Below are positions 6,186 to 24,376 of a stretch of 64,000 nt of DNA, in pieces. This DNA comes from Calothrix sp. PCC 7103. Lineage in GTDB: Bacteria > Cyanobacteriota > Cyanobacteriia > Cyanobacteriales > Nostocaceae. Positions within the stretch are counted from its first letter, which is position 1. Each line of letters starts with the position of its first letter. The translations under genes were made by a program, and so were the position numbers. The stretch covers positions 1,719,679-1,783,678 of the forward strand of contig NZ_KB217478.1 in assembly GCF_000331305.1 (NCBI RefSeq). The letters are read 5' to 3'. The notes under the pieces are model-generated. The model made no database searches. It worked only from the letters and a program-made list of their open reading frames with translations, and was not told the origin of the DNA.

Positions 6186-7109
6186 TCAAATATTAGACCA
6201 ATATTTTGAAGGAATCCATATTTTGTTAAACTTCTGTTCTTGCGCTGCGGCAAGGCTTGGAGGCATTAAAAATTCTCCGATAACACTAATGACTTCAGTC
6301 AAGGAAACTTGTTCTGTCTTAAGTTGTCCCTTATTAACAAAGGATTTCCATTGTTTCTGTTTAGCAGTGTCAAGAGCAAATTCTAAGGTTAAAGCGAAGG
6401 GTAAGATTGTGGGTAATGTTGTTTTGCGTCGGTTAAACGTATTTTTGATTGCTTCGGAAAGAATTTCTCCCTGAAATTCAAATTTTTGACAGAGGAACCA
6501 GATATCATAAAAATCTTTTAATCGACTGTTTGTAATGCCAAGGTCAACCATTGCTTGAAATTTTTCAGCAACGACTGTTTCACGAGGATAGACAAGCAAC
6601 GAGGGAGCAGGCATATCCAAGATAGTAGGAAATTCAGCTAATGCCGCTGATGGTGTAACTGCATCACCAAATCCAATATCAACTTGAACCTGGATATTAA
6701 CCGAAGTCAGTTTACCCGTCAACTTAATTCGTACCCCTTCATATTGCTGTTCTTCCTTGATTGTTTCACCCTTGACACTTTCTTGATCAAAGACAATGCC
6801 ATCATCCTCAAAGGCTATACAGCAAATTTCTGCAAAGACTTTTTCCAGATAATAAATTTTATTTTCGCCATAACCAAGCAGGTCTAAATCTTTAGTAGCT
6901 CTATGCGGCTCACCATGCCATATCCTAAATAGACTTGCTCCCTTTAGGATAAACTGCTGCTTGTATGGAGATTGACTCAACCTGTATAAAAGACGGTCAG
7001 CGGCATAACGAGTAAGCAGATAATTAAAATCCTCCTGTCGGAGTTTTGAGAGTTGTAGCAAACGCCCTTTAACTGAAGCTGGAATATTACGAAGTAACTT
7101 TTTATTCAT
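6186..7109 (-). CDS. abiEii: AbiEii-type nucleotidyltransferase toxin
   Basis: 307 residues from ATG at 7109; a longer open frame exists upstream, but 7109 overlaps the AbiEi stop by 4 bp (ATGA) and gives the family N-terminus MNKKLLRNIPASVKGRL. The nucleotidyltransferase core is visible: FILKGASLFRIW followed by RATKDLDLLGYG, with DLDL the metal-binding acidic pair, then a beta strand containing IQVQVDIGFGDAV and the conserved PRETVVAEKFQAMVDLG...LKDFYDIWFL. AbiEii proteins are type IV toxins that block growth during phage infection and are neutralised by AbiEi. Coupled translation with the preceding gene supports a functional pair. Length is normal for the family. Confidence 0.85.
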   Translation of the reverse strand: MNKKLLRNIPASVKGRLLQLSKLRQEDFNYLLTRYAADRLLYRLSQSPYKQQFILKGASLFRIWHGEPHRATKDLDLLGYGENKIYYLEKVFAEICCIAFEDDGIVFDQESVKGETIKEEQQYEGVRIKLTGKLTSVNIQVQVDIGFGDAVTPSAALAEFPTILDMPAPSLLVYPRETVVAEKFQAMVDLGITNSRLKDFYDIWFLCQKFEFQGEILSEAIKNTFNRRKTTLPTILPFALTLEFALDTAKQKQWKSFVNKGQLKTEQVSLTEVISVIGEFLMPPSLAAAQEQKFNKIWIPSKYWSNI

Positions 7110-7702
7110 TTGAGCGACTCTAAATAAGGACGCATCACATTTTGCATTCGGCAGATTTTGGCATAATGCCAAATCTCGTCGATGCTGCAATGTCTCTCCC
7201 GTGTGCTAGAACGTAGTGCTTCGATAGCGACATCAAGACCAATTTTGTTACGAAACTTGAAACAATCTACAACGGTTTTAGCAACAGAATAAACTCTTAC
7301 ACGCACTCCTTCAATTTCATGCTCCTCAATCCCAGATTTCAAAGCTTGACCAGACATATAAACAATCCGTAGTGGAAGTATATCTTCTTTAGGAGCGCGT
7401 GCTTTTTGGGATATAGTTAACCATACTTCAAAAGGTGCTTGGGTTGTCAGTTCATAAAAGCTGAGAGCAGAAAGCAAGCAGATTATTCCATGAGGAACCC
7501 TTTTGGCTGCTTCCACGAGGCTATGACTTTCTGTAATTTCTGCTTCTGTGAAAGTATAAAGCCCACGGGCAGAACGAATTAGCAATCCTTGCTGCTCAAG
7601 ACGTTTTAGATATTCCGGATGGATTCCTTTTGCTTCCGCGTCTTTAGCGCGAATCACCCCCATCTCATGGGCGAGTTCCAGCACTTGCTGCATTTTGGAC
7701 AT
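7106..7702 (-). CDS. abiEi: AbiEi-type antitoxin / transcriptional repressor
   Basis: 198 residues. The N-terminal 60 residues form the winged-helix typical of AbiEi (ELAHEMGVIRAKDAEAKGIHPEYLKRLEQQGLLIR, shown in part, ending SARGLYTF). The C-terminal part has the conserved HGIICLLSALSFYELTTQ and the catalytic-like SVAKTVVDCFKFRNKIGLDVAIEAL. In the known family AbiEi represses its own promoter and antagonises AbiEii. Its stop TGA overlaps the ATG of the toxin gene, the usual type IV arrangement. The 249 bp upstream should contain the autoregulated promoter; I saw no clear operator by eye. Confidence 0.85.
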   Translation of the reverse strand: MSKMQQVLELAHEMGVIRAKDAEAKGIHPEYLKRLEQQGLLIRSARGLYTFTEAEITESHSLVEAAKRVPHGIICLLSALSFYELTTQAPFEVWLTISQKARAPKEDILPLRIVYMSGQALKSGIEEHEIEGVRVRVYSVAKTVVDCFKFRNKIGLDVAIEALRSSTRERHCSIDEIWHYAKICRMQNVMRPYLESLK

Positions 7703-8511: not shown

Positions 8512-8533
8512 GCACAGGCTTTCCGGCCTGTGC
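8512..8533. repeat. GCACAGGC hairpin repeat
   Basis: GCACAGGC (8512-8519) pairs with GCCTGTGC (8526-8533) across a 6-nt loop, just beyond the 3' end of the coiled-coil gene. The same stem recurs at 11735-11755, beyond the other end of the two-gene unit. The preceding 8400-8470 stretch has CTTTGTGTCTTTGTGG and CTCTGTGTCTCTGTGG type dispersed repeats. Could act as terminator or be a mobile short repeat. Confidence 0.5.
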
Positions 8534-8544
8534 GACAAGAGGGA

Positions 8545-9327
8545 TTAACGCATTATTGATAGGATGAGGGTTACTGCTGAACATAGGGAGAGGGCAAGTA
8601 ACCAAGTGTTGAATTGTTTTTGCTTTTTTGCTTGGGTTTCTACTTTTTGGTGTAATCGTTCTATTTCTGTTTGTGCTTCTTGAAGTTGGTTGTGGATGCT
8701 TTGGTTATCGAGATGTAGGTTGTCTAGTGCTTGTTTCCCTCCAAAGTCGGTTATTATTGTTTGAATTTCGGTTTTTATGGTTTGGATTTGTGAGTGTGCT
8801 TGAGAGACTTCATTGGTTTGTGTTTGGGTTTTTTCTTGGTATCTGGCTATTTCTTGTTTGGTTGTTTCGATTTGCGTTGCTAGTTGGTTGATTTGTTCGA
8901 GTTGTTGAGGCAAGTCTTTGGTGAATGCTGGTAAGATTGCTTCTAGTTGTTGCGCTTGAGTTTTTGTTGCGTCTACGCTGTCTATTATAAATTTTAGTTC
9001 GTGTCTGAATGTGCCTAGTAAAGTTTGGTAGTCTCCTATTTGCTCTAAGTATGATGTTATTTCATCGCGAATTTCATGGATTGCACTGATATTTACTTCT
9101 AGTTTGACTTGTTGTTCTTGGATTTCTTGGATGTTGTTTTTGACAGTTTGTGAGAATAAGAATGTGTCTGATTTTAATTGTTCTATTTTGCTGTTATCTT
9201 CAATAATGGCTGTGTGAATGTTGGCAGCTTGTTTGACTGCGTTGTTCGCTGTTGTAATTCCTCGTTCGATGGTATGCCAAAGTTCTTCTAGTTGTTTGGC
9301 TATTTCTGCATCTGTATGTAATTTCAT
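8545..9327 (-). CDS. Coiled-coil protein with C-terminal membrane anchor
   Basis: 260 residues. From residue about 10 to 235 the sequence is rich in Q, E, I and L with heptad spacing (for example QLEEL, NIQEIQEQQVKLE, QTEIERLHQKVETQAKK), a long coiled coil. The last 20 residues (WLLALSLCSAVTLILSIMR) form one hydrophobic helix with a terminal Arg, so a tail-anchored membrane protein is likely. Its ATG follows the helicase stop with no gap, and an AGGAGA ribosome binding site lies inside the end of the helicase gene, so the two are translationally coupled. No family is recognised. By analogy with other two-gene immune units it may be the membrane effector or sensor, but this is inference. Confidence 0.75.
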   Translation of the reverse strand: MKLHTDAEIAKQLEELWHTIERGITTANNAVKQAANIHTAIIEDNSKIEQLKSDTFLFSQTVKNNIQEIQEQQVKLEVNISAIHEIRDEITSYLEQIGDYQTLLGTFRHELKFIIDSVDATKTQAQQLEAILPAFTKDLPQQLEQINQLATQIETTKQEIARYQEKTQTQTNEVSQAHSQIQTIKTEIQTIITDFGGKQALDNLHLDNQSIHNQLQEAQTEIERLHQKVETQAKKQKQFNTWLLALSLCSAVTLILSIMR

Positions 9328-11637
9328 TTAATTTTCTCCTTTTAATAATAGATTATTTAGACGTGATGTAAATGATTCACATAGTAATGTTACTAGTGGC
9401 TTTTGTTGGTTTGATTGAGTGTTGATATCTTGCCAAAAACTTAGATTTTGTTGGTAGTTGCCATCATATATATGTGACCTGACGCGCGCTGCTTCATACG
9501 GTAAACCTTTTGCTTCTAGGTCTTTGGCTATACTTTTCAATAAGTATTTATACTCTTGGAAGTCGGTATCTTTTAATAGTTCAGCTTCTTCTACTGCTTG
9601 CCAAGATAATCCCATTGCGCGTAATAGTAAACAGCGCAGGTGGATATTTTGAGTTTTTTGGAGTTCGTTGTTTAAGTGTTCATGTGTATGTTTTTTTAAT
9701 AGTGTTATGGCTTGGGTTTCCCATATATATAGTTCTGCATTTTCTACTCCGGCAAATTGCAATGCTAAATAACTATCCCAATATAGATAACCTGTTTCGC
9801 AACGTTTGAGTAGACGTTGTTGTACGTCATCAGTAATTTGATTTAAGTCGGCGTCACTGACAATTTCACTAATCCAATTTATGGCGCCACTCGTATCGAT
9901 GATTTCACATTGCTGAAAAAAGTTATAGCCATTGTCAGAAAGGCGCCTCATTTCCGACGTTGTTACAACTACTAATAAACGAGAACGCGCGCGGGTTAAA
10001 AGTGTATACCATTGAAAACTTTCTTCTAGAGTCGGTTTTCCTTCACCTTCAAACAAGCAAAAAGCAACACAAGCTTCAAATTCACGACCTTTAGCTTTTT
10101 CTGGGTTGAGAATTACTAAATTATCGTTCGAGTTTAATGCTTTATTAGAAAGTACTTTAACCGCTTTCGCTAAGTCACGGAGTAAGTAACGACGATTTTC
10201 TTCGTTACCACATTCTCCAGCAAGTTTGTCTAAAAATAAAATCGCTTCTTCTTTAGATGCACATTCTAATAATTTTACACTTTCACCAGTTTCAAAAGCG
10301 TGTTTAGGATTCGCTGGTAATGGTAGCTCTTTACATTTGTTTTCAGATGTAATTATTTTTGCTACTTCCCAAAATTGATTTGCAAATTCTAATATTTGGC
10401 GTGAATTACGGTAATTACGTACTAGTTCAATCGAATTTTTAATATGTAACTGTCCCCAGTTAAAATCAGTAGCTTGAATGCGTTGATTTAAATCACCTAA
10501 TAGCCATAAATAGGTTTGATGCCCTTGGGCAGCCCATGACTTACATACTGAAATAATAGCTTGTAACTCGCTTAATAAATAATCTTGTGTTTCATCTACT
10601 ATTAATAAAGTGCATTCAGAATTACTAGGGTTAATATTGAGTGAATTCTGTAATATTTTCGCTGCATCTGACCGTGATATACGACAAGATAAAGCTTTAT
10701 AAAAATGCTTTTTACTAATTTTTAATAAATTTTCAACTCGGTGTGAGTTGACTTGATACATAACGTTTTTATCATTAGCTTTATGCTTATTTTCATCTAA
10801 CACAAAAGCTTGATATAATAAAACGTCATCGGTTGTAATATCAGTTTGACGACTATATTTCAGTGCTTGCTTTAATGCATCTAACTCTTCTTGTCCTGAA
10901 GCTAGACGGTTTTTAAACTCAGGATTAATTTTAGTCAACCACTGTGGAAACGTACCTAACCAAAAATTTTCTTGAGTTGCTGCTGTTTTAACTTCAGAAA
11001 ATTCTGAAATATCACGTCGCAAAGCTTCCGGTACAATCAACATTGTATTCCACCCAAAATTACGGTGAATTTCGCAAGCGAATAAAGTTGCACAAACCGT
11101 TTTACCTGTACCAGGCGCGCTTTGGATTACAATACATGAACTATCTTCAAACTCATGTACCGTTGATGGTTGATACTGCGAACACAATATTCGTAAAGGT
11201 TCATCCAAAATATTGCGCTGGTAATTCGTCAAAATAGGTGAGTACCGATAGCTACCATACACAAACCTGTACCAATCGGTATCTTGCTCTCGATTCCATT
11301 GATATGCTGGGTTTTCCTCTAACGCAGTACCTTGTGGATGTAAAAGTTCTTCAATAACGTTTGTGTGCGAACATTCTCGCTCATCAAAAGCATGATCATA
11401 AACACTATCGCGCAACCCAGCTTTGATAACAACTACATTATTATCTGCGCGATGCCAAATAACGCGCCATTTGCCAGAGCGAGTTCGTAACAAATTATCA
11501 AAACCCTTGAGCGCTTTCGTTTGTCTTTCATCTCCTTGACTCAACCGATGCAAAATCTGGTAAATCCTTTGCAGGTCAGCAGGTGGAAGCTTTTGAATTT
11601 CACGAAAGGCCGCGCGGATTATTTTCACGTCAGCCAT
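9328..11637 (-). CDS. RelE/ParE-like domain fused to SF1 (UvrD-like) helicase
   Basis: 769 residues. Residues 1-85 resemble the RelE/ParE mRNA interferase/gyrase toxin fold (IIRAAFREIQKLP, LSQGDERQTKALKGF, RSGKWRVIWHRADNNVVVIKAGLRDSVYDH). An SF1 helicase core follows: Walker A SAPGTGKTVCA near 176, Walker B LLIVDETQDYL near 345, LWLLGDLNQRI (motif III), the NYRNSRQILEFANQFW block, NPEKAKGREFEACVAF and LLTRARSRLLVVVT (motifs V-VI). The last 170 residues are helical and unassigned. The downstream coiled-coil membrane gene begins at the very next base. ParE-like residues may bind RNA or ribosomes rather than act as a free toxin, as no antitoxin gene is adjacent. It is likely a defence or RNA-quality-control module. 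Confidence 0.8.
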   Translation of the reverse strand: MADVKIIRAAFREIQKLPPADLQRIYQILHRLSQGDERQTKALKGFDNLLRTRSGKWRVIWHRADNNVVVIKAGLRDSVYDHAFDERECSHTNVIEELLHPQGTALEENPAYQWNREQDTDWYRFVYGSYRYSPILTNYQRNILDEPLRILCSQYQPSTVHEFEDSSCIVIQSAPGTGKTVCATLFACEIHRNFGWNTMLIVPEALRRDISEFSEVKTAATQENFWLGTFPQWLTKINPEFKNRLASGQEELDALKQALKYSRQTDITTDDVLLYQAFVLDENKHKANDKNVMYQVNSHRVENLLKISKKHFYKALSCRISRSDAAKILQNSLNINPSNSECTLLIVDETQDYLLSELQAIISVCKSWAAQGHQTYLWLLGDLNQRIQATDFNWGQLHIKNSIELVRNYRNSRQILEFANQFWEVAKIITSENKCKELPLPANPKHAFETGESVKLLECASKEEAILFLDKLAGECGNEENRRYLLRDLAKAVKVLSNKALNSNDNLVILNPEKAKGREFEACVAFCLFEGEGKPTLEESFQWYTLLTRARSRLLVVVTTSEMRRLSDNGYNFFQQCEIIDTSGAINWISEIVSDADLNQITDDVQQRLLKRCETGYLYWDSYLALQFAGVENAELYIWETQAITLLKKHTHEHLNNELQKTQNIHLRCLLLRAMGLSWQAVEEAELLKDTDFQEYKYLLKSIAKDLEAKGLPYEAARVRSHIYDGNYQQNLSFWQDINTQSNQQKPLVTLLCESFTSRLNNLLLKGEN

Positions 11638-11734: not shown

Positions 11735-11755
11735 GCACAGGCGTCTCGCCTGTGC
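11735..11755. repeat. GCACAGGCG hairpin repeat
   Basis: GCACAGGCG TCT CGCCTGTGC is a perfect 9-bp stem with a 3-nt loop, in the 245-bp gap between the divergent helicase and DUF4058 genes. It is the same family as the hairpin at 8512-8533. Confidence 0.55.
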
Positions 11756-14596: not shown

Positions 14597-15193
14597 ATGC
14601 CGTACAACAAGTTCACATTACGCAAGGTAGTTGAAGACTTTTCGCTTATTATTGTGGAAGGTGACACGTTTATTCCCGAACTAGAATCGGTTGCGCCGAG
14701 TGAGTTGTTGCGGGAAACTCTGGCGGATAGTTTACCTTGGGCAATTGCGGTAAGTAGCGAGAAGGCTAGGTCGGAGGCAATTATTACGCCAATTTTGTTG
14801 GAAGTTCGACGACGGTTAAATCGCCAGGTAAGTGTGTTTTCTGGCGAAGATTTTACGGTGGATGTGGAGGCAGAATTGAGCGGACGTTGTGATTTTCTGG
14901 TGAGTAAATCGGCGGAGCAGTTATTTATTAAAGCACCTGCGGTGATTATTGTCGAAGCCAAGAAAGAGGATACTAAGTCTGGATTAGGGCAATGTGCCGC
15001 AGAAATGGTTGCAGCACAGATATTTAATGAAACGGCTTCTTCATCGATACCGGTGATTTATGGTTGTGTCACCAGTGGAACGGCTTGGCGATTTTTGAAG
15101 TTAGAAGGGCAAACCTTGACAATCGATCTGGCGGATTACCCCCTGCCACCTACAGATCGGGTATTGAGTATTTTGCTGTGGATGCTGCGTTAG
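14597..15193 (+). CDS. Predicted PD-(D/E)XK-type nuclease-like protein
   Basis: 198 residues. The middle part has a likely restriction-endonuclease-like core: FTVDVEAELSGRCDFLVSK (Asp) followed by APAVIIVEAKKEDT (the ExK pair) and then GQCAAEMVAAQIFNE, a helix with the Gln often found in this fold. It resembles the N-terminal nuclease domain of type I HsdR proteins but is free-standing. Such proteins are frequent in cyanobacterial accessory regions and lack a known role. Start ATG at 14597 is the first in frame. Immediately after the stop is antitoxin debris on the opposite strand. Confidence 0.65.
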   Translation: MPYNKFTLRKVVEDFSLIIVEGDTFIPELESVAPSELLRETLADSLPWAIAVSSEKARSEAIITPILLEVRRRLNRQVSVFSGEDFTVDVEAELSGRCDFLVSKSAEQLFIKAPAVIIVEAKKEDTKSGLGQCAAEMVAAQIFNETASSSIPVIYGCVTSGTAWRFLKLEGQTLTIDLADYPLPPTDRVLSILLWMLR

Positions 15194-18574: not shown

Positions 18575-21500
18575 TTAATTTTGTAACTTCTCTATTTTTT
18601 CGACCAAGAGACGAATTTGAGCAGGTTTATTACGAAACCAATCTGTTGACCATATTCTATGGATGTTCCAGCCAAGTTTTTCAAGTACTTGTTGTCTTAA
18701 ACGGTCACGGTCTCTGGCTGTAGGGGAACTATGGTAGGATGCACCATCACATTCAATGCCTAACAAAAATTCTCCTGGGTGATTTTTGTTGACAACTGCT
18801 AGGTCAATTCGATAACCTGAACATCCAACTTGAGTACGTATAGTATATCCCCGTTCTACCAAGGTGTGGTACACATCTTCTTCAAATGGTGAGTCAAATT
18901 TAAGTTCACTGCTATACAAATTACCTTCGAGTTTTTTACCACCGCTCTCTGCATACTCTAGGTAATCTCGTAACAACTTTATACCTTGACTTTTACTGCG
19001 TGTTATATCTATATCACCAGCTAGAAGAGAGGAGACTAAGGTAATTTTACTTTTTGCCCGTGTAATGGCTACATTCAGGCGCCGTTCTCCACCTTGTTTT
19101 ATAATTGGGCCAAAATTCAGATAAAGTTTACCTTCGGAGTCACGAGCATAACCTACGCTGAGTAATATCACATCTCGCTCATCACCTTGAACATTTTCTA
19201 GTGCTTTGAGAAAAAATCGAGGTGAGTTGTCGCTGCAAAATATATCAAATTCGGGGTTGTCTTTGCACAAAATCTCTATTTGCTCTTGAATTGCGTTAGC
19301 TTGTGCTTCACTAAATGCAATAATACCAAGAGATTCATTGGGACATGATTGAAAATGTTCTAACGCTAACTGAGCAACTACTTCTGCCTCACGTCTATTA
19401 TCCCGGCGCCCACCTCGGTCGTAAATACCATCAGGAACATGCTTAAACCATACTCCCAAGTTGAGATTTTGAACTGGATTTTGAACTGGATTTTGAACTG
19501 GGTTCGGAAATGTAATTAATTGAGAATCGTAGAAATGTTTATTGGAGAAAGTTATTAAGCGCTCATCCTGACTACGATAGTGCCACTTAAGCATGTGGCG
19601 AAACATAAAATTCCAACATTCATCTAAAACGCTTTCATAGCTTGCATTATCCTCATCTTCCGCATCTTCTCCATTATCTCCGGTTACGAAGAAAGATGTT
19701 GGTGGAAGTTGTTTGTTATCACCAATGACAATAACTTGGTCGGCACGAATAATTGCAGGAACAACATCCTCCGTGCGAAGTTGAGAAGCTTCATCAAAAA
19801 TTAGAACGTCAAAATGAATTACATTAGCATCAATATATTGACTGACTGATAGCGGACTCATCATCCAGCAAGGTTTTAAAGCTTTGACTAACTTTGGCGC
19901 CCCTTTTTGTTTATCATTGAGAAGTTTACGAATCGGCAAATGCTGCTTTTTCTTAGTTACTTCTCTTTTAAGTATTTGTAACTCAGCTTGAATATCTAAG
20001 TTTTTTTCGTGATTTTGCCAACGTTGCGCGTGAAGTTGCTTTAAACGTTCTCTAGCAGCATCAAGTTGGTAGCTATCAAGTTTAGAAAAATCTTGAATTT
20101 GTCGTTCGTGTACCTCTATATTAAAGTTTTTTAACTCAGGTTTTTGAGCAAGAATAGCATCAAGACATGTTTTGTAAATAATTTTCTCTAGACATGAAAA
20201 CCATTGTAATGGTTTTATTTTACGTTTGCGTAAAGCATCTAATAATTTTTTAGTTCCTAAATTTTCAAGTTTCTCATAGGTTTCTTTATAGGTTAACCAT
20301 TCTTGAAAGTCAGATAATTCAGATTTAGCTAAATTAAGGAAACTCTCTAATTCTACGAAAGTAATTTTATTTTGGGGTAGATAAGAATCTGTAATATCAC
20401 TGTCATTAAAGTATGACAGTATAAAATCTAATCCTTGTTTGATATTTTTATGTGTTGATTCAAATGTTTTTACAAGTTCGCTTAGTTCGCGTCGTTGAGA
20501 GGGAGAATTTATAATTTCCTGAACAGAATCAGTTTCGAGCGAATACTGTTGTAAATCAACTAGCCAATTTAAAGCTTCTTTAATTGGTTTTAGTTCTGTT
20601 TGACTGGAAATTTGCGGGTTAAACAAAGAACCAAAAATTTGAGCAGGTAAATAATCACTTTGACTAAGTTTATTTTTAAGAACTGCCATTGGATTTAGTC
20701 TATTATCCCGCAAAGCATCTACAAATTCTTGAAGTCCTAAATTTTCTAGCTCTGTATGTATTTCTTTGTATGTTAACCAATTGCGGAAATGTGATAAATC
20801 AGTTTTAGCTGTAAATAGAAAATTGGCCAAATCGGTAAATAGTATTTGAGTATGAGGTAAATATTGCCCAGCAATATCATTTTCTTTAAAGTACATGAGT
20901 ACAAAATTCATGCCCTTTCTAAAACTTTCAGGAAAGGATTCAATTTTCTCAAATAATTCAACTAGTTCACGTCGCTGAGAGGCAGAATTTAAAACTTGCT
21001 GAACATAGTCTGTGTCGAGCGAATACTGTTGTAAATCAACCAGCCAATTTAAAGCTTCCTCAATTTGTTTTAATTCTGCTTGACTCGAAATTTGCGGGTT
21101 AAATAAGCAGCCAAAAACTTGAGCAGGTAAATAATCTATTTGGCTAAGTTTATTTTGAAGGACGACTATAGGACTTGGTTTATTATCTCGCAAAGCATCT
21201 ACAAAGTTTTGAAGTCCTAAATTTTCTAGTTTTGTATGAATTTCTTTATATGTTGACCAATTACGAAAATGCGGTAAATCAGTTTTAGCTTGATTCAGAA
21301 ATTTTATCAGGTCAGTAAATAATATTTGATTTATTGGTAAATATTTCCCAATGATATCATTCTGATTAAAGTGTGAAGTCAAAAAATTCATTCCCTGGTT
21401 AAAGTCTTCAGGGAATGATTCAACTATTTTAACTAATTCACCTAGCTGCTGCCGTAAAGATGGAGAATTTATAAGGCGCCTAACAGAGTCATGAGTCAGC

Positions 21501-24376
21501 GAATAATTTGGTAAGTTAGTCAACCAACTTAAAGCTTGTTCAATTTTGATTAATTCTGACTGATGAGAAAATTCAGGATTAAATAAAGACCCAAAAACTT
21601 GACGAGCAGGGTAGTTGCTTTCATACAGTTCATTTCTTGCTGCTTGTACTTCAACAGCTTGTAATAAATCACGTTTTAATTCATTAAACGAAATCTGTCC
21701 TTCTTGAATTCGTAGTCTCTTTAAATACTTAATATCGTTTCTATATTTGGGATTAAAAATTCTAATAACCCAATAACGATTATATCTTTGAAATCTATTA
21801 TTCAAAACAGGCAATTCTGAAGAAAATAATTCTGAATTATATTTTTGTTTTAAAAATGGTTCATTCTCTTCTAAAAATGTGATGTTTGCTTTTAACTTAG
21901 CAAAGGCATCCTGAGCAATTGAAACATCTACTGTGTTCCAGTTACTTGGCAAATCAGATGGGCTATTTAATATATAATGAAGAGCAGGCAAGGATGCTTC
22001 AATATTTTCTAAATTTAATAGTGGCTGAATTATTAAAATATTTTGAAGCTTTTGAGATGCTGTTTGAAGCGAATAAATAGCTTTCTGAAAACTTTCAATT
22101 TTGTTATTAATTTCTAGTTCTAAATTTTCTGAACAAGATTGTAATTTACTGTTATGCCAGATAGTTGTAGTTTGTTCTCTTAATAAAGGTAGAAACATCG
22201 AAAGTTGATGCAGTAAATTTTCAGCTTCTACTGAAAGCTTATTTTTTTCAATTTCTCGAACATCGTTTCTCAAAATATTTAAAGCATCTCGAATAATTGA
22301 AATATTTAATGAAACCCAGTTCTCTGGTAACTTAGATGGCGCCTTCAATATATGTTGAAGAGTTAAATAGCAAATTTGTACATCTCTTAAATTCAATAAA
22401 GGTTGAACCTTAAGGGTCATTTCAAGCTGTTGACTAACTGTTTTAATTAAAGAAATTGCTTGTTGGAATTCCTGAATTTTATTACTTATTTCAAATTCCT
22501 GCGTTTCAGAGCAATACTTTAAATTGCTTCGTTCCCAAATAAGTGTTTTTTCTCCTCTTAAGAATAATAAAAATGAATAAAGTCGAGCAAGTAGATTTTT
22601 AGCTTCTTGAGAAAGCTTTTTGTTTTCAATTTCTTGAACGTCTTTTTCTAAAATACTAAATGCTTCACAAACGGTCGAAACTTCTAATTTAGTCCAATTC
22701 TCTGGTAATTGTAATGGCGCCTTTACTATATGATATATAGCTGAGTAGCAATTTTCTAGTGACTCTAAATTAGATAAAGCTTGAATTTGCAGTGTTCCTT
22801 CTAACTCTTGGCTAATATTTTTAACTGAAATAATTGCTTGCTGAAACTCTTGTATTTTTTCTCTAATTTCTAATTCGAGCTTATAAGAATAAGTCGCAAG
22901 AGAACTTTTTGCCCAAATAGTTCTTTTATCTCCTTGAAAGAAAGCTAAAAACTGCGCTAGCTGATTCAATAAATTTTCAGCCTCTTGCAATTTGTGTAAA
23001 TCCCATTGATTGAAATTAGAAAGTATAATGTCAATATCTGGAATTCCTTCACGCTCTTGCTTTAAAAGTGTACCAAATAGTTCAAATGCAGATTTGTCTA
23101 AAGGCTTTTCTTTCGTATGTAAGCTTGTGTGATATGAATTAACTAATTGACGATTAGAAGCAAACCTTTCAAAAAATAAATTGTGATTTTCTGAACTAGA
23201 TATTTGTGATATATCATTTATGGTTTTGTCTAAATTCTGGATAAGTTTGCGTTTATCAGTTGTACCACTGTGGTGGAGATTAAGACAGATATGGTCTAAA
23301 CCACAATCTGCCATGCGCTTATAAACAATACTTAATGCTGTTTCTTTTTCCGCAACCAATAAAACTGATTTACCCTCACCAACCAGTTCAGCAATTATAT
23401 TTACAATAGTTTGGCTTTTACCAGTTCCTGGTGGTCCTTGAACAACAAAGCTAGAACCTCTTTTTGCTGCTTCTATCACAACTTGCTGACTAGAATCAGC
23501 ATCTAAAATTTGAAATATTTGTTCTGGTTTAATTAGTGAATCTAAAGTTTTGGCATCTGGTGGTTCTTTAAAGTTGGACTGATAGCTTGTAAAATCTCCA
23601 CTAATTGCTTGCAAAATCGGGTGAGAAAAAATCCGAGTCTCATTTTCTATGATGTCCCGAACTATTGTCGCTTTGGCATAAGAAAACAATGACAGAAACA
23701 CATTATCTTTAATTTGCCAAGTCTGATGGTCTACTAAAAATTCCCTAATTAAAGTAATTATGTCGTCGTAATTTAAGTCTTGTATAATTTCTGCTTCTGG
23801 AAGTTCAATCCCAAATGCTTGCTTTAACTTTTGCACTAAGGTTGGATTTAATACTACATCCTCTTCTAAGGCAGATAGTTTATATACATCTCGTCTAGGT
23901 TGCTTAATTAACTCTACAGGAACTAAAATCAACGGCGAGGTTAAAGCTTCTTCTGGTTTATCCTTATCGTACCAAGTTAACGCTCCCAATGCAAGAAATA
24001 AGCTGTTTATCCCTCGCTCTTCAAATGACAGGCGCGCTTCGCTACGTAATTTCTTCAGTCGTTTGAGTTGTTCGCTACCTGTTTGACGAGTAATTAATTC
24101 CAGAGGATTTGCGGCGCCTGGTAATGCTTTATTATTTTTCAATAGAGAAGTATCTTTATACTCACTATCAAACATCTGAAAATTAAGCGTTTTCTTCTCA
24201 AATACAAGGTTTTGGAAGAGAATATTCGCAGAATCTGTGAGAATCTCCAAAGTTCGTGGGCTATCTTGCTTAAACTTGATAAGAGGATTTCGTTTCCCCA
24301 AGTCAGCTAACCCAGCTTTCCACTTTGCAATCTTTTGAATAAGGTTTTGCCGAAAGTCCAAAGCTGGCTGCTGCAT
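18575..24376 (-). CDS. DUF4011 / SF1 helicase / Vsr-like nuclease giant protein
   Basis: 1933 residues. N-terminal DUF4011: LADLGKRNPLIKF and GINSLFLALGALTW followed by SPLILVPVELI. Then an AAA_11/AAA_12-type SF1 helicase, Walker A VVQGPPGTGKSQTIVNII near 312 and Walker B VLIFDEASQLRTEDVV near 1525, with VIVIGDNKQLPPTSFF and the late motifs NVQGDERDVILLSVGYAR and RRLNVAITRAKSKITLV. The end (about 1825-1930) is a Vsr/MTES_1575-type nuclease: SPFEEDVYHTLVERG, GYRIDLAV, LGIECDGASYHSS and LEKLGWNIHRIWSTDWF. Two families of internal triplicates fill the centre (about 470-860 and 930-1390). Such proteins are predicted phage-defence enzymes that open and cut DNA. Confidence 0.88.
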   Translation of the reverse strand: MQQPALDFRQNLIQKIAKWKAGLADLGKRNPLIKFKQDSPRTLEILTDSANILFQNLVFEKKTLNFQMFDSEYKDTSLLKNNKALPGAANPLELITRQTGSEQLKRLKKLRSEARLSFEERGINSLFLALGALTWYDKDKPEEALTSPLILVPVELIKQPRRDVYKLSALEEDVVLNPTLVQKLKQAFGIELPEAEIIQDLNYDDIITLIREFLVDHQTWQIKDNVFLSLFSYAKATIVRDIIENETRIFSHPILQAISGDFTSYQSNFKEPPDAKTLDSLIKPEQIFQILDADSSQQVVIEAAKRGSSFVVQGPPGTGKSQTIVNIIAELVGEGKSVLLVAEKETALSIVYKRMADCGLDHICLNLHHSGTTDKRKLIQNLDKTINDISQISSSENHNLFFERFASNRQLVNSYHTSLHTKEKPLDKSAFELFGTLLKQEREGIPDIDIILSNFNQWDLHKLQEAENLLNQLAQFLAFFQGDKRTIWAKSSLATYSYKLELEIREKIQEFQQAIISVKNISQELEGTLQIQALSNLESLENCYSAIYHIVKAPLQLPENWTKLEVSTVCEAFSILEKDVQEIENKKLSQEAKNLLARLYSFLLFLRGEKTLIWERSNLKYCSETQEFEISNKIQEFQQAISLIKTVSQQLEMTLKVQPLLNLRDVQICYLTLQHILKAPSKLPENWVSLNISIIRDALNILRNDVREIEKNKLSVEAENLLHQLSMFLPLLREQTTTIWHNSKLQSCSENLELEINNKIESFQKAIYSLQTASQKLQNILIIQPLLNLENIEASLPALHYILNSPSDLPSNWNTVDVSIAQDAFAKLKANITFLEENEPFLKQKYNSELFSSELPVLNNRFQRYNRYWVIRIFNPKYRNDIKYLKRLRIQEGQISFNELKRDLLQAVEVQAARNELYESNYPARQVFGSLFNPEFSHQSELIKIEQALSWLTNLPNYSLTHDSVRRLINSPSLRQQLGELVKIVESFPEDFNQGMNFLTSHFNQNDIIGKYLPINQILFTDLIKFLNQAKTDLPHFRNWSTYKEIHTKLENLGLQNFVDALRDNKPSPIVVLQNKLSQIDYLPAQVFGCLFNPQISSQAELKQIEEALNWLVDLQQYSLDTDYVQQVLNSASQRRELVELFEKIESFPESFRKGMNFVLMYFKENDIAGQYLPHTQILFTDLANFLFTAKTDLSHFRNWLTYKEIHTELENLGLQEFVDALRDNRLNPMAVLKNKLSQSDYLPAQIFGSLFNPQISSQTELKPIKEALNWLVDLQQYSLETDSVQEIINSPSQRRELSELVKTFESTHKNIKQGLDFILSYFNDSDITDSYLPQNKITFVELESFLNLAKSELSDFQEWLTYKETYEKLENLGTKKLLDALRKRKIKPLQWFSCLEKIIYKTCLDAILAQKPELKNFNIEVHERQIQDFSKLDSYQLDAARERLKQLHAQRWQNHEKNLDIQAELQILKREVTKKKQHLPIRKLLNDKQKGAPKLVKALKPCWMMSPLSVSQYIDANVIHFDVLIFDEASQLRTEDVVPAIIRADQVIVIGDNKQLPPTSFFVTGDNGEDAEDEDNASYESVLDECWNFMFRHMLKWHYRSQDERLITFSNKHFYDSQLITFPNPVQNPVQNPVQNLNLGVWFKHVPDGIYDRGGRRDNRREAEVVAQLALEHFQSCPNESLGIIAFSEAQANAIQEQIEILCKDNPEFDIFCSDNSPRFFLKALENVQGDERDVILLSVGYARDSEGKLYLNFGPIIKQGGERRLNVAITRAKSKITLVSSLLAGDIDITRSKSQGIKLLRDYLEYAESGGKKLEGNLYSSELKFDSPFEEDVYHTLVERGYTIRTQVGCSGYRIDLAVVNKNHPGEFLLGIECDGASYHSSPTARDRDRLRQQVLEKLGWNIHRIWSTDWFRNKPAQIRLLVEKIEKLQN

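Follow-up and report, generated by a model that had tools for sequence, protein, structure and literature searches.

A RelE-headed SF1 helicase and its coiled-coil partner: a two-gene unit of cyanobacteria with a possible role in defence or stress arrest

What does a helicase with a toxin-like head do next to a gene for a long coiled coil? The question is raised by two genes in a 64,000-nucleotide stretch of Calothrix sp. PCC 7103 DNA (contig NZ_KB217478.1; the whole stretch is called the window here), which belongs to a genome of 11.58 Mb. An earlier note on this DNA had described them as a candidate defence unit. Indeed, the open reading frames (ORFs) of the window contain both genes on the minus strand, each with an ATG start: a gene for a RelE-headed superfamily 1 (SF1) helicase of 769 amino acids (aa) at 9328..11637 and a gene for a coiled-coil partner of 260 aa at 8545..9327. 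The start codon of the coil gene abuts the helicase stop and begins at the very next base, just as the note had it. All parts of the two genes described below lie on the same strand. The closest named relatives in a genome-contig scan are six Calothrix/Dulcicalothrix records with a helicase identity of 87-98%.

That the two genes form a real two-gene unit is near certain. With the helicase as query (E<=0.001), we searched a phylum sample of 386 cyanobacterial genomes and obtained matches in 26, which by reading divide into 15 with the family helicase, 9 with a short RelE-like ORF only and 2 with another helicase. All 15 helicase-bearing genomes have a coil gene downstream on the same strand, which bears out the co-occurrence across cyanobacteria that the earlier note had left to be checked; a helicase usually standing alone is not what we see. 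The gap between the genes is -8 to 52 nucleotides in 12 genomes and 377, 456 and 1122 nucleotides in the other three. Eleven of the 15 coils were recognised by a sequence signature and four mainly by position. At the longest gap, in genome G233 (L043 11076-11736), two small ORFs, one of them RelE-like, separate helicase and coil, and its close relative G051 has the gap of 456 nucleotides.

A search across the order gave matches in 39 of 388 genomes at 1e-10. We counted 31 of these as having a family member or fragments; in the other eight, the match was to another helicase or to nothing more than a short RelE-like ORF. In a table of 39 loci, the coil signature adjoins the helicase in 35; the exceptions are L082 at a contig end, the helicase remnants L104 and L105, and L106, where the downstream ORF scores E 2.3. 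Two other helicases from the first downstream-gene list (L051, L052) are excluded from this table, and so are L057, L090, L091 and L096 as copies of L045, L031, L033 and L056. Because the 39 loci include close relatives, and because 15 of the 35 signature-positive loci had trained the profile, we made a held-out test. A profile built from 14 coils picked out the coil gene at 8 of 17 loci, with E 5e-18 to 5e-7 and one genus contributing four of the eight; among 857 ORFs it gave no further match at E<1. The nine missed coils (four of Synechocystis type, two from Picosynechococcus, and those of L049, L050 and L106) form a second profile, which matches the first over 30 columns with an hhalign probability of 91.7; their kinship with the window-type coil is drawn from position and this short match. 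Upstream of the very divergent RelE-helicase locus L106, at 213-1890, lie an AAA ATPase-like ORF and a next ORF that by eye form a possible defence pair.

The reverse search, in which this sample of 386 genomes was scanned for the coil signature, found 13 places in 13 genomes, 11 of them adjoining the helicase, and it missed 4 of the 15 helicase-bearing genomes, all with a divergent coil type. One of the two remaining places, the match in G270 (4.7e-4), crosses another ORF in antisense and is due to chance. The other is the coil of G030 (L120 6665-7801), which has no helicase; a 33-residue piece of a helicase N-terminus lies directly upstream (51% identity, E 0.001), so we regard this coil as what is left of a decayed pair. 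A large gene downstream of this orphan coil looks NACHT/HEAT-like by eye. The two proteins also change together. On a tree of 29 helicases, in which two long-branch joins are flagged, the coils end in a tail anchor in 14 cases, in an 'ELGF' hydrophobic end in 7 and in neither in 8, and this C-terminal type changes 3 times compared to 12.8 in shuffles; the coil ends of L040 and L094 are masked or tailless and were typed from their relatives L101 and L102. Judged by these comparisons, helicase and coil evolve as a unit. The distribution is patchy, with split or decayed copies, and relatives of the helicase were found in cyanobacteria only, in the plasmid searches and in the genome-contig scan, which covers close relatives.

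The head of the helicase (aa 1-88, 11374..11637) is very likely of RelE type. The alignment profile of this domain, A3, matched 10 sequences of the PDB at E<=0.1, every one RelE/YoeB-type: 3g5o (1.3e-5) was best, followed by 9g12 (2.6e-5), 1wmi (1.1e-4), RelE itself (4v7k, 0.0017) and YoeB (about 0.01). Free RelE acts on RNA in the ribosomal A site, and its catalytic positions are R61, R81, Y87, K54 and K52. Helicase residues R51, R58, R76 and Y80 align with RelE K54, R61, R81 and Y87. Counted over 29 helicase rows, R58, R76 and Y80 are kept in 29/29 and the K54 position is R in 26/29, while the K52 position is K or R in 0/29 and H in one. The case for homology to RelE is strong on these alignments, and the RelE/ParE-like N-terminus that the earlier note had read from the translation is confirmed by the profile match to PDB chains. 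Single N-terminal domains reached at best E 0.011 against Pfam (ParE_toxin, 3 of 15 members). The full-length helicase structure prediction had a mean predicted local distance difference test score (pLDDT) of 39, with only 7 near-identical sequences as input, and Foldseek with the model of the RelE domain gave no informative result.

The UvrD/HelD-like core follows at about aa 130-570 (9928..11250), with Walker A at 176-180 and DETQD at 348-352. The SF1 residues K179, D348, E349, Q351, Q385, R410 and R549, including motifs III, IV and VI, are kept in all 29 rows, so that the UvrD-like core of the earlier note holds with its motifs intact and the motor is likely active, as far as conserved residues can tell. 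Compared with two Calothrix relatives, the helicase has ratios of nonsynonymous to synonymous substitution rates (dN/dS) of 0.056 and 0.070, and its RelE part one of 0.04. Against Pfam, no family reached its gathering score, the best partial matches being of AAA_19, ResIII, DEAD and UvrD_C types. The best NCBIfam match is the HelD model NF041464 with 41.3 bits (aa 294-561; cut-off 419), and this model is matched at E<=0.001 by 7 of the 17 helicase homologues that make up our alignment A1. A C-terminal region of predicted helical repeats (about aa 600-769, 9331..9840, model-based) is helical in its only confidently modelled part, aa 641-720 (pLDDT block means 73-89).

The partner has the features of a long coiled coil with a hydrophobic end, in line with the earlier note. 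Its heptad-band power lies 8.4 standard deviations over shuffles in a simple purpose-made test. The last 20 residues are hydrophobic, and by Kyte-Doolittle aa 241-259 (8551..8607) form a putative tail anchor, with a 19-residue mean of 2.07 at aa 241 and of 1.85-2.30 in six near relatives. In the A6 alignment, a conserved signature T-D-x-E-I-A-x-Q-L-E-x-L-x-x-x-I stands at the N-terminus (aa 1-31, 9235..9327). From the hydrophobic tails, membrane association of the coil is likely in most lineages. The dN/dS of the coil against the two Calothrix relatives is 0.20 and 0.16. Its matches in Pfam and NCBIfam (for NCBIfam, the best 25 of 30) are weak and of coiled-coil type only, with no GTPase and no antitoxin-type DNA-binding domain among them.

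The Synechocystis form of the coil has a family name and, by gene order, a published protein name. The coil that adjoins the helicase homologue there is PADLOC family C3a168 (2.2e-159), which is listed under 'Unknown function'. We take C3a names to denote type III CRISPR-associated families, whose probable source is reportedly Shah et al. 2019. Among plasmids, copies of the pair occur in eight records, six from Synechocystis and two from Picosynechococcus. On pSYSA of PCC 6803, a Csx3-AAA gene (P0003), the helicase and the coil are consecutive, between a TIGR03985 CRISPR-associated gene and cmr genes, and the arrangement in PCC 6714 resembles this. The TIGR03985 gene is near the pair in PCC 6803 (pSYSA), PCC 6714 (pSYLA) and B12, with type III-B cmr genes beyond it in 6803 and 6714. 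Two TIGR03985 genes are also found in the genome of the window, far from its pair. Near the Picosynechococcus copies lie WYL, methyltransferase, VapC and XisI genes. In the 6803-type records (L053 8803-11190, pSYSA) and on pAQ6 of PCC 7002 (L054 8695-11078), the annotation gives the helicase as two coding sequences, in PCC 6714, B12 and PCC 7003 as a single one; the coil gene runs as one uninterrupted frame in each of the five. Cas10/Cmr2 is present in 11 of the 15 genomes with the helicase versus 82 of 371 others (p 5.5e-5). The cas10 gene is 13-15 kb from the helicase in G093 and G083, and in the other 13 genomes there is none near it among the matches listed (four without any match; the place in G091 not listed).

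Counting genes from the Csx3-AAA ORF, we infer that the PCC 6803 coil is Slr7083; csx3 (slr7080) sits upstream of CRISPR3 (PMC9676260). Slr7083 has been studied, and what follows is taken from the part of that work open to us (PMC7002697): it assembles into nets in vitro, is located at the cell periphery and binds HmpF in a two-hybrid assay. Its authors term it highly strain-specific and suggest that its overexpression is deleterious in PCC-M, and the main text has the word helicase 0 times (PMC7002697). Compared to the window coil, the Synechocystis protein is longer (377 aa) and has no hydrophobic tail, and the C3a168 model is absent among the best 25 of 34 PADLOC matches for the window coil. 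If the pair is a unit, the work on Slr7083 used a strain in which the annotation splits the partner gene in two, and strains that have this partner undivided would offer a way to test the function.

The surroundings of the pair in the window contain further elements outside the unit. AbiEii (6186-7190) and AbiEi (7106-7702) lie close by at 6186..7702 on the minus strand (Pfam/PADLOC), as the earlier note had said. Among six near relatives with the pair, only L034 has AbiE in the fetched flank of about 5 kb, and we rejected AbiE as a component. The GCACAGGC hairpins that had been noticed on both sides of the pair are indeed there, 3' of it at 8512..8533 and 5' of it at 11735..11755, with 2 found versus 0 in 100 shuffles. 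The GCACAGGC-loop-GCCTGTGC hairpin has 76 exact places genome-wide and its reversed control 0; because they belong to such a dispersed repeat, the hairpins are neither part of the unit nor its boundaries. Two other genes of the window are worth recording. At 18575-24376 on the minus strand, 7 kb from the pair, a protein of 1933 aa matches PADLOC PDC-S37 (1509 bits) and Hhe (541 bits) and is a helicase-nuclease defence candidate. At 14597-15193 on the plus strand, a protein of 198 aa matches the PADLOC CRISPR-associated model PD_DExK (1.3e-52).

What could such a unit do? The coil protein may multimerise along or under the inner membrane, where its hydrophobic tail would hold it in most lineages, and its short conserved N-terminus could dock the helicase. 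The helicase would load on nucleic acid as an ATP-driven SF1 motor, with a predicted RelE-like head that binds or cuts RNA. Most likely, the coil would keep this motor quiet at the membrane until a membrane event, either the entry of foreign nucleic acid or stress, frees it to engage RNA or DNA. The engaged motor would then stop the expression of invader or host, making the pair a defence or stress-arrest unit. We hold this mechanism as a whole tentatively, at somewhat less than an even chance. Among single roles we rank defence first, just short of an even chance, with surveillance or housekeeping behind it. The case for it is drawn from the plasmid context with CRISPR and toxin-antitoxin genes, the patchiness and the precedent of ArmD discussed below; the case against it comes from housekeeping surroundings and a published motility phenotype, so that the candidate defence unit of the earlier note finds support only in part, AbiE being absent beside the pair in five of six near relatives.

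Several observations weigh against a membrane-held defence unit. The neighbours of 20 loci from genome assemblies, which may lie on chromosomes or plasmids, are by reading mostly housekeeping-looking (150 proteins); these loci include the near-duplicates L037 and L092. In a neighbour tally made without a random-locus control set, Clp protease (4, all from two near-duplicate loci) and ABC transporter (4) are among the best 25 of 168 Pfam families, and the commonest PADLOC families at E<=1e-10 are mad3 (5) and methyltransferase models (2) among the best 25 of 161. Neither 50,697 phage records nor viral contigs, which gave 42 pattern matches, contained a relative. The hydrophobic coil end is missing in 8 of the 29 rows, and the A6 signature fails on Synechocystis-type coils. 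Deletion of slr7083 in PCC-M led to less twitching and disturbed cytokinesis, and the phenotypes published for Slr7083 concern motility and cytokinesis rather than phage defence (PMC7002697). Finally, within the family of the window, Cas10/Cmr2 is present in 7/7 helicase-bearing genomes versus 29/36 others (p 0.58). Because the Cas10 association is not seen there, lineage may explain it, and with no regular cas10/cmr linkage we rejected a CRISPR link as a general rule.

The housekeeping surroundings are what one would expect if the pair served surveillance, with the RelE-like head as a ribosome- or RNA-binding module, a HelD-like motor that works near the membrane to release stalled ribosomes or RNA polymerase, and the coil as a tether, without any role against invaders. 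The strong purifying selection on the helicase, HelD as its best named match (41 bits; 7/17 members) and the neighbours common to L040, L094 and L102 (one genus) and to L097 and L098 fit this well. A housekeeping pair is difficult to reconcile with its presence in only 15/386 genomes, its decay to fragments in several genomes and plasmid copies in CRISPR and toxin-antitoxin neighbourhoods, and we consider surveillance rather unlikely. The kept R61, R81 and Y87 positions and the strict two-gene layout also suit an addiction pair, in which the helicase-borne RelE is the toxin, the coil its inhibitor, and loss is punished; the deleterious overexpression suggested for Slr7083 in PCC-M speaks for it as well (PMC7002697). 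Yet G600 and G431 retain helicase fragments with no coil found, although in G030 the coil outlives the helicase, as an antitoxin could. The coil's lack of an antitoxin-type DNA-binding domain among the matches named above and a motor needlessly large for such a task make this a doubtful explanation.

The least probable of these readings is a cytoskeletal or motility coil, as proposed for Slr7083, to which we add the helicase as a regulator. The filament-like nets, the HmpF binding and the reduced twitching of the PCC-M mutant, as far as the published text is available, speak for it (PMC7002697), but in PCC 6803 the annotation splits the helicase gene in two, and the window-type coil profile fails to recognise coils of the Slr7083 type. 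Because of its divided partner gene, Slr7083 may work without the helicase and may not show the ancestral role of the unit; we regard this reading as very unlikely. A bolder form of the preferred reading, coil-tethered defence or stress arrest, is that of a cyanobacterial system of new build, in which a membrane-tethered filament scaffold stores the RelE-headed motor at the inner membrane and releases it on the arrival of foreign nucleic acid or stress there, and which was recruited as a type III CRISPR output in some Synechocystis plasmids. This version is unlikely. If true, the recruitment would explain the orphan family C3a168 and the filament protein Slr7083, and RelE domains would be delivered by a membrane-stored motor rather than as a free toxin.

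How does the pair compare with known systems? With the RelE/YoeB type II toxins it shares the domain family by profile and three invariant key positions; its domain differs in being fused to a helicase, with no RelB-like partner seen. HelD, the RNA polymerase recycling motor, is the closest named helicase model, but 41.3 bits against a cut-off of 419 led us to reject membership, and the window family has a RelE-like head. CoCoNuT types II and III-A (CnuH with CnuB) also combine an SF1 helicase and a RelE/colicin-D-like domain in a coiled-coil-rich system; by their description, CnuH resembles UPF1 and has an OB domain, and a McrB-type GTPase is part of CnuB (PMC11090510). Neither domain is seen here, and membership was rejected for want of a McrB-type GTPase and a McrC/CnuC partner. 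The nearest precedent is ArmD of ARMADA type II, according to the accessible text a GajB-like UvrD helicase fused to a RelE-like N-terminal domain and required for defence, with the deletion and the Walker A mutant both inactive (PMC12458937). The copy that we compared (E. coli ATCC 8739, NC_010468 4239557-4241671, identified via neighbours and annotation) stands next to further helicases and a methyltransferase, with no coil gene adjoining. It scores 123 bits with GajB models versus <=24 bits in seven scanned members of the family studied here; its RelE part reaches 0.9 bits against A3 and its helicase 13 bits against A1, in motifs II-IV only. ArmA, ArmB and ArmC are absent beside the pair among the window ORFs to 26 kb, judged by translation, and in PCC 7002/7003 a helicase-related gene and methyltransferases lie near the pair in an order unlike ArmA-D. 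Given the different helicase family and RelE part and no ArmA-C alongside, we rejected ARMADA membership; likewise, ArmD removes any claim that a RelE-UvrD fusion is unprecedented (PMC12458937). Thus, while this helicase family with its coil partner is unnamed in PADLOC 2023, Pfam, NCBIfam and the accessible part of the literature searched, as the earlier note had suspected for the pairing, the kind of fusion at its head is already known, and the unit links an unnamed RelE-headed helicase family, PADLOC C3a168 and the filament protein Slr7083, which that same literature leaves unconnected.

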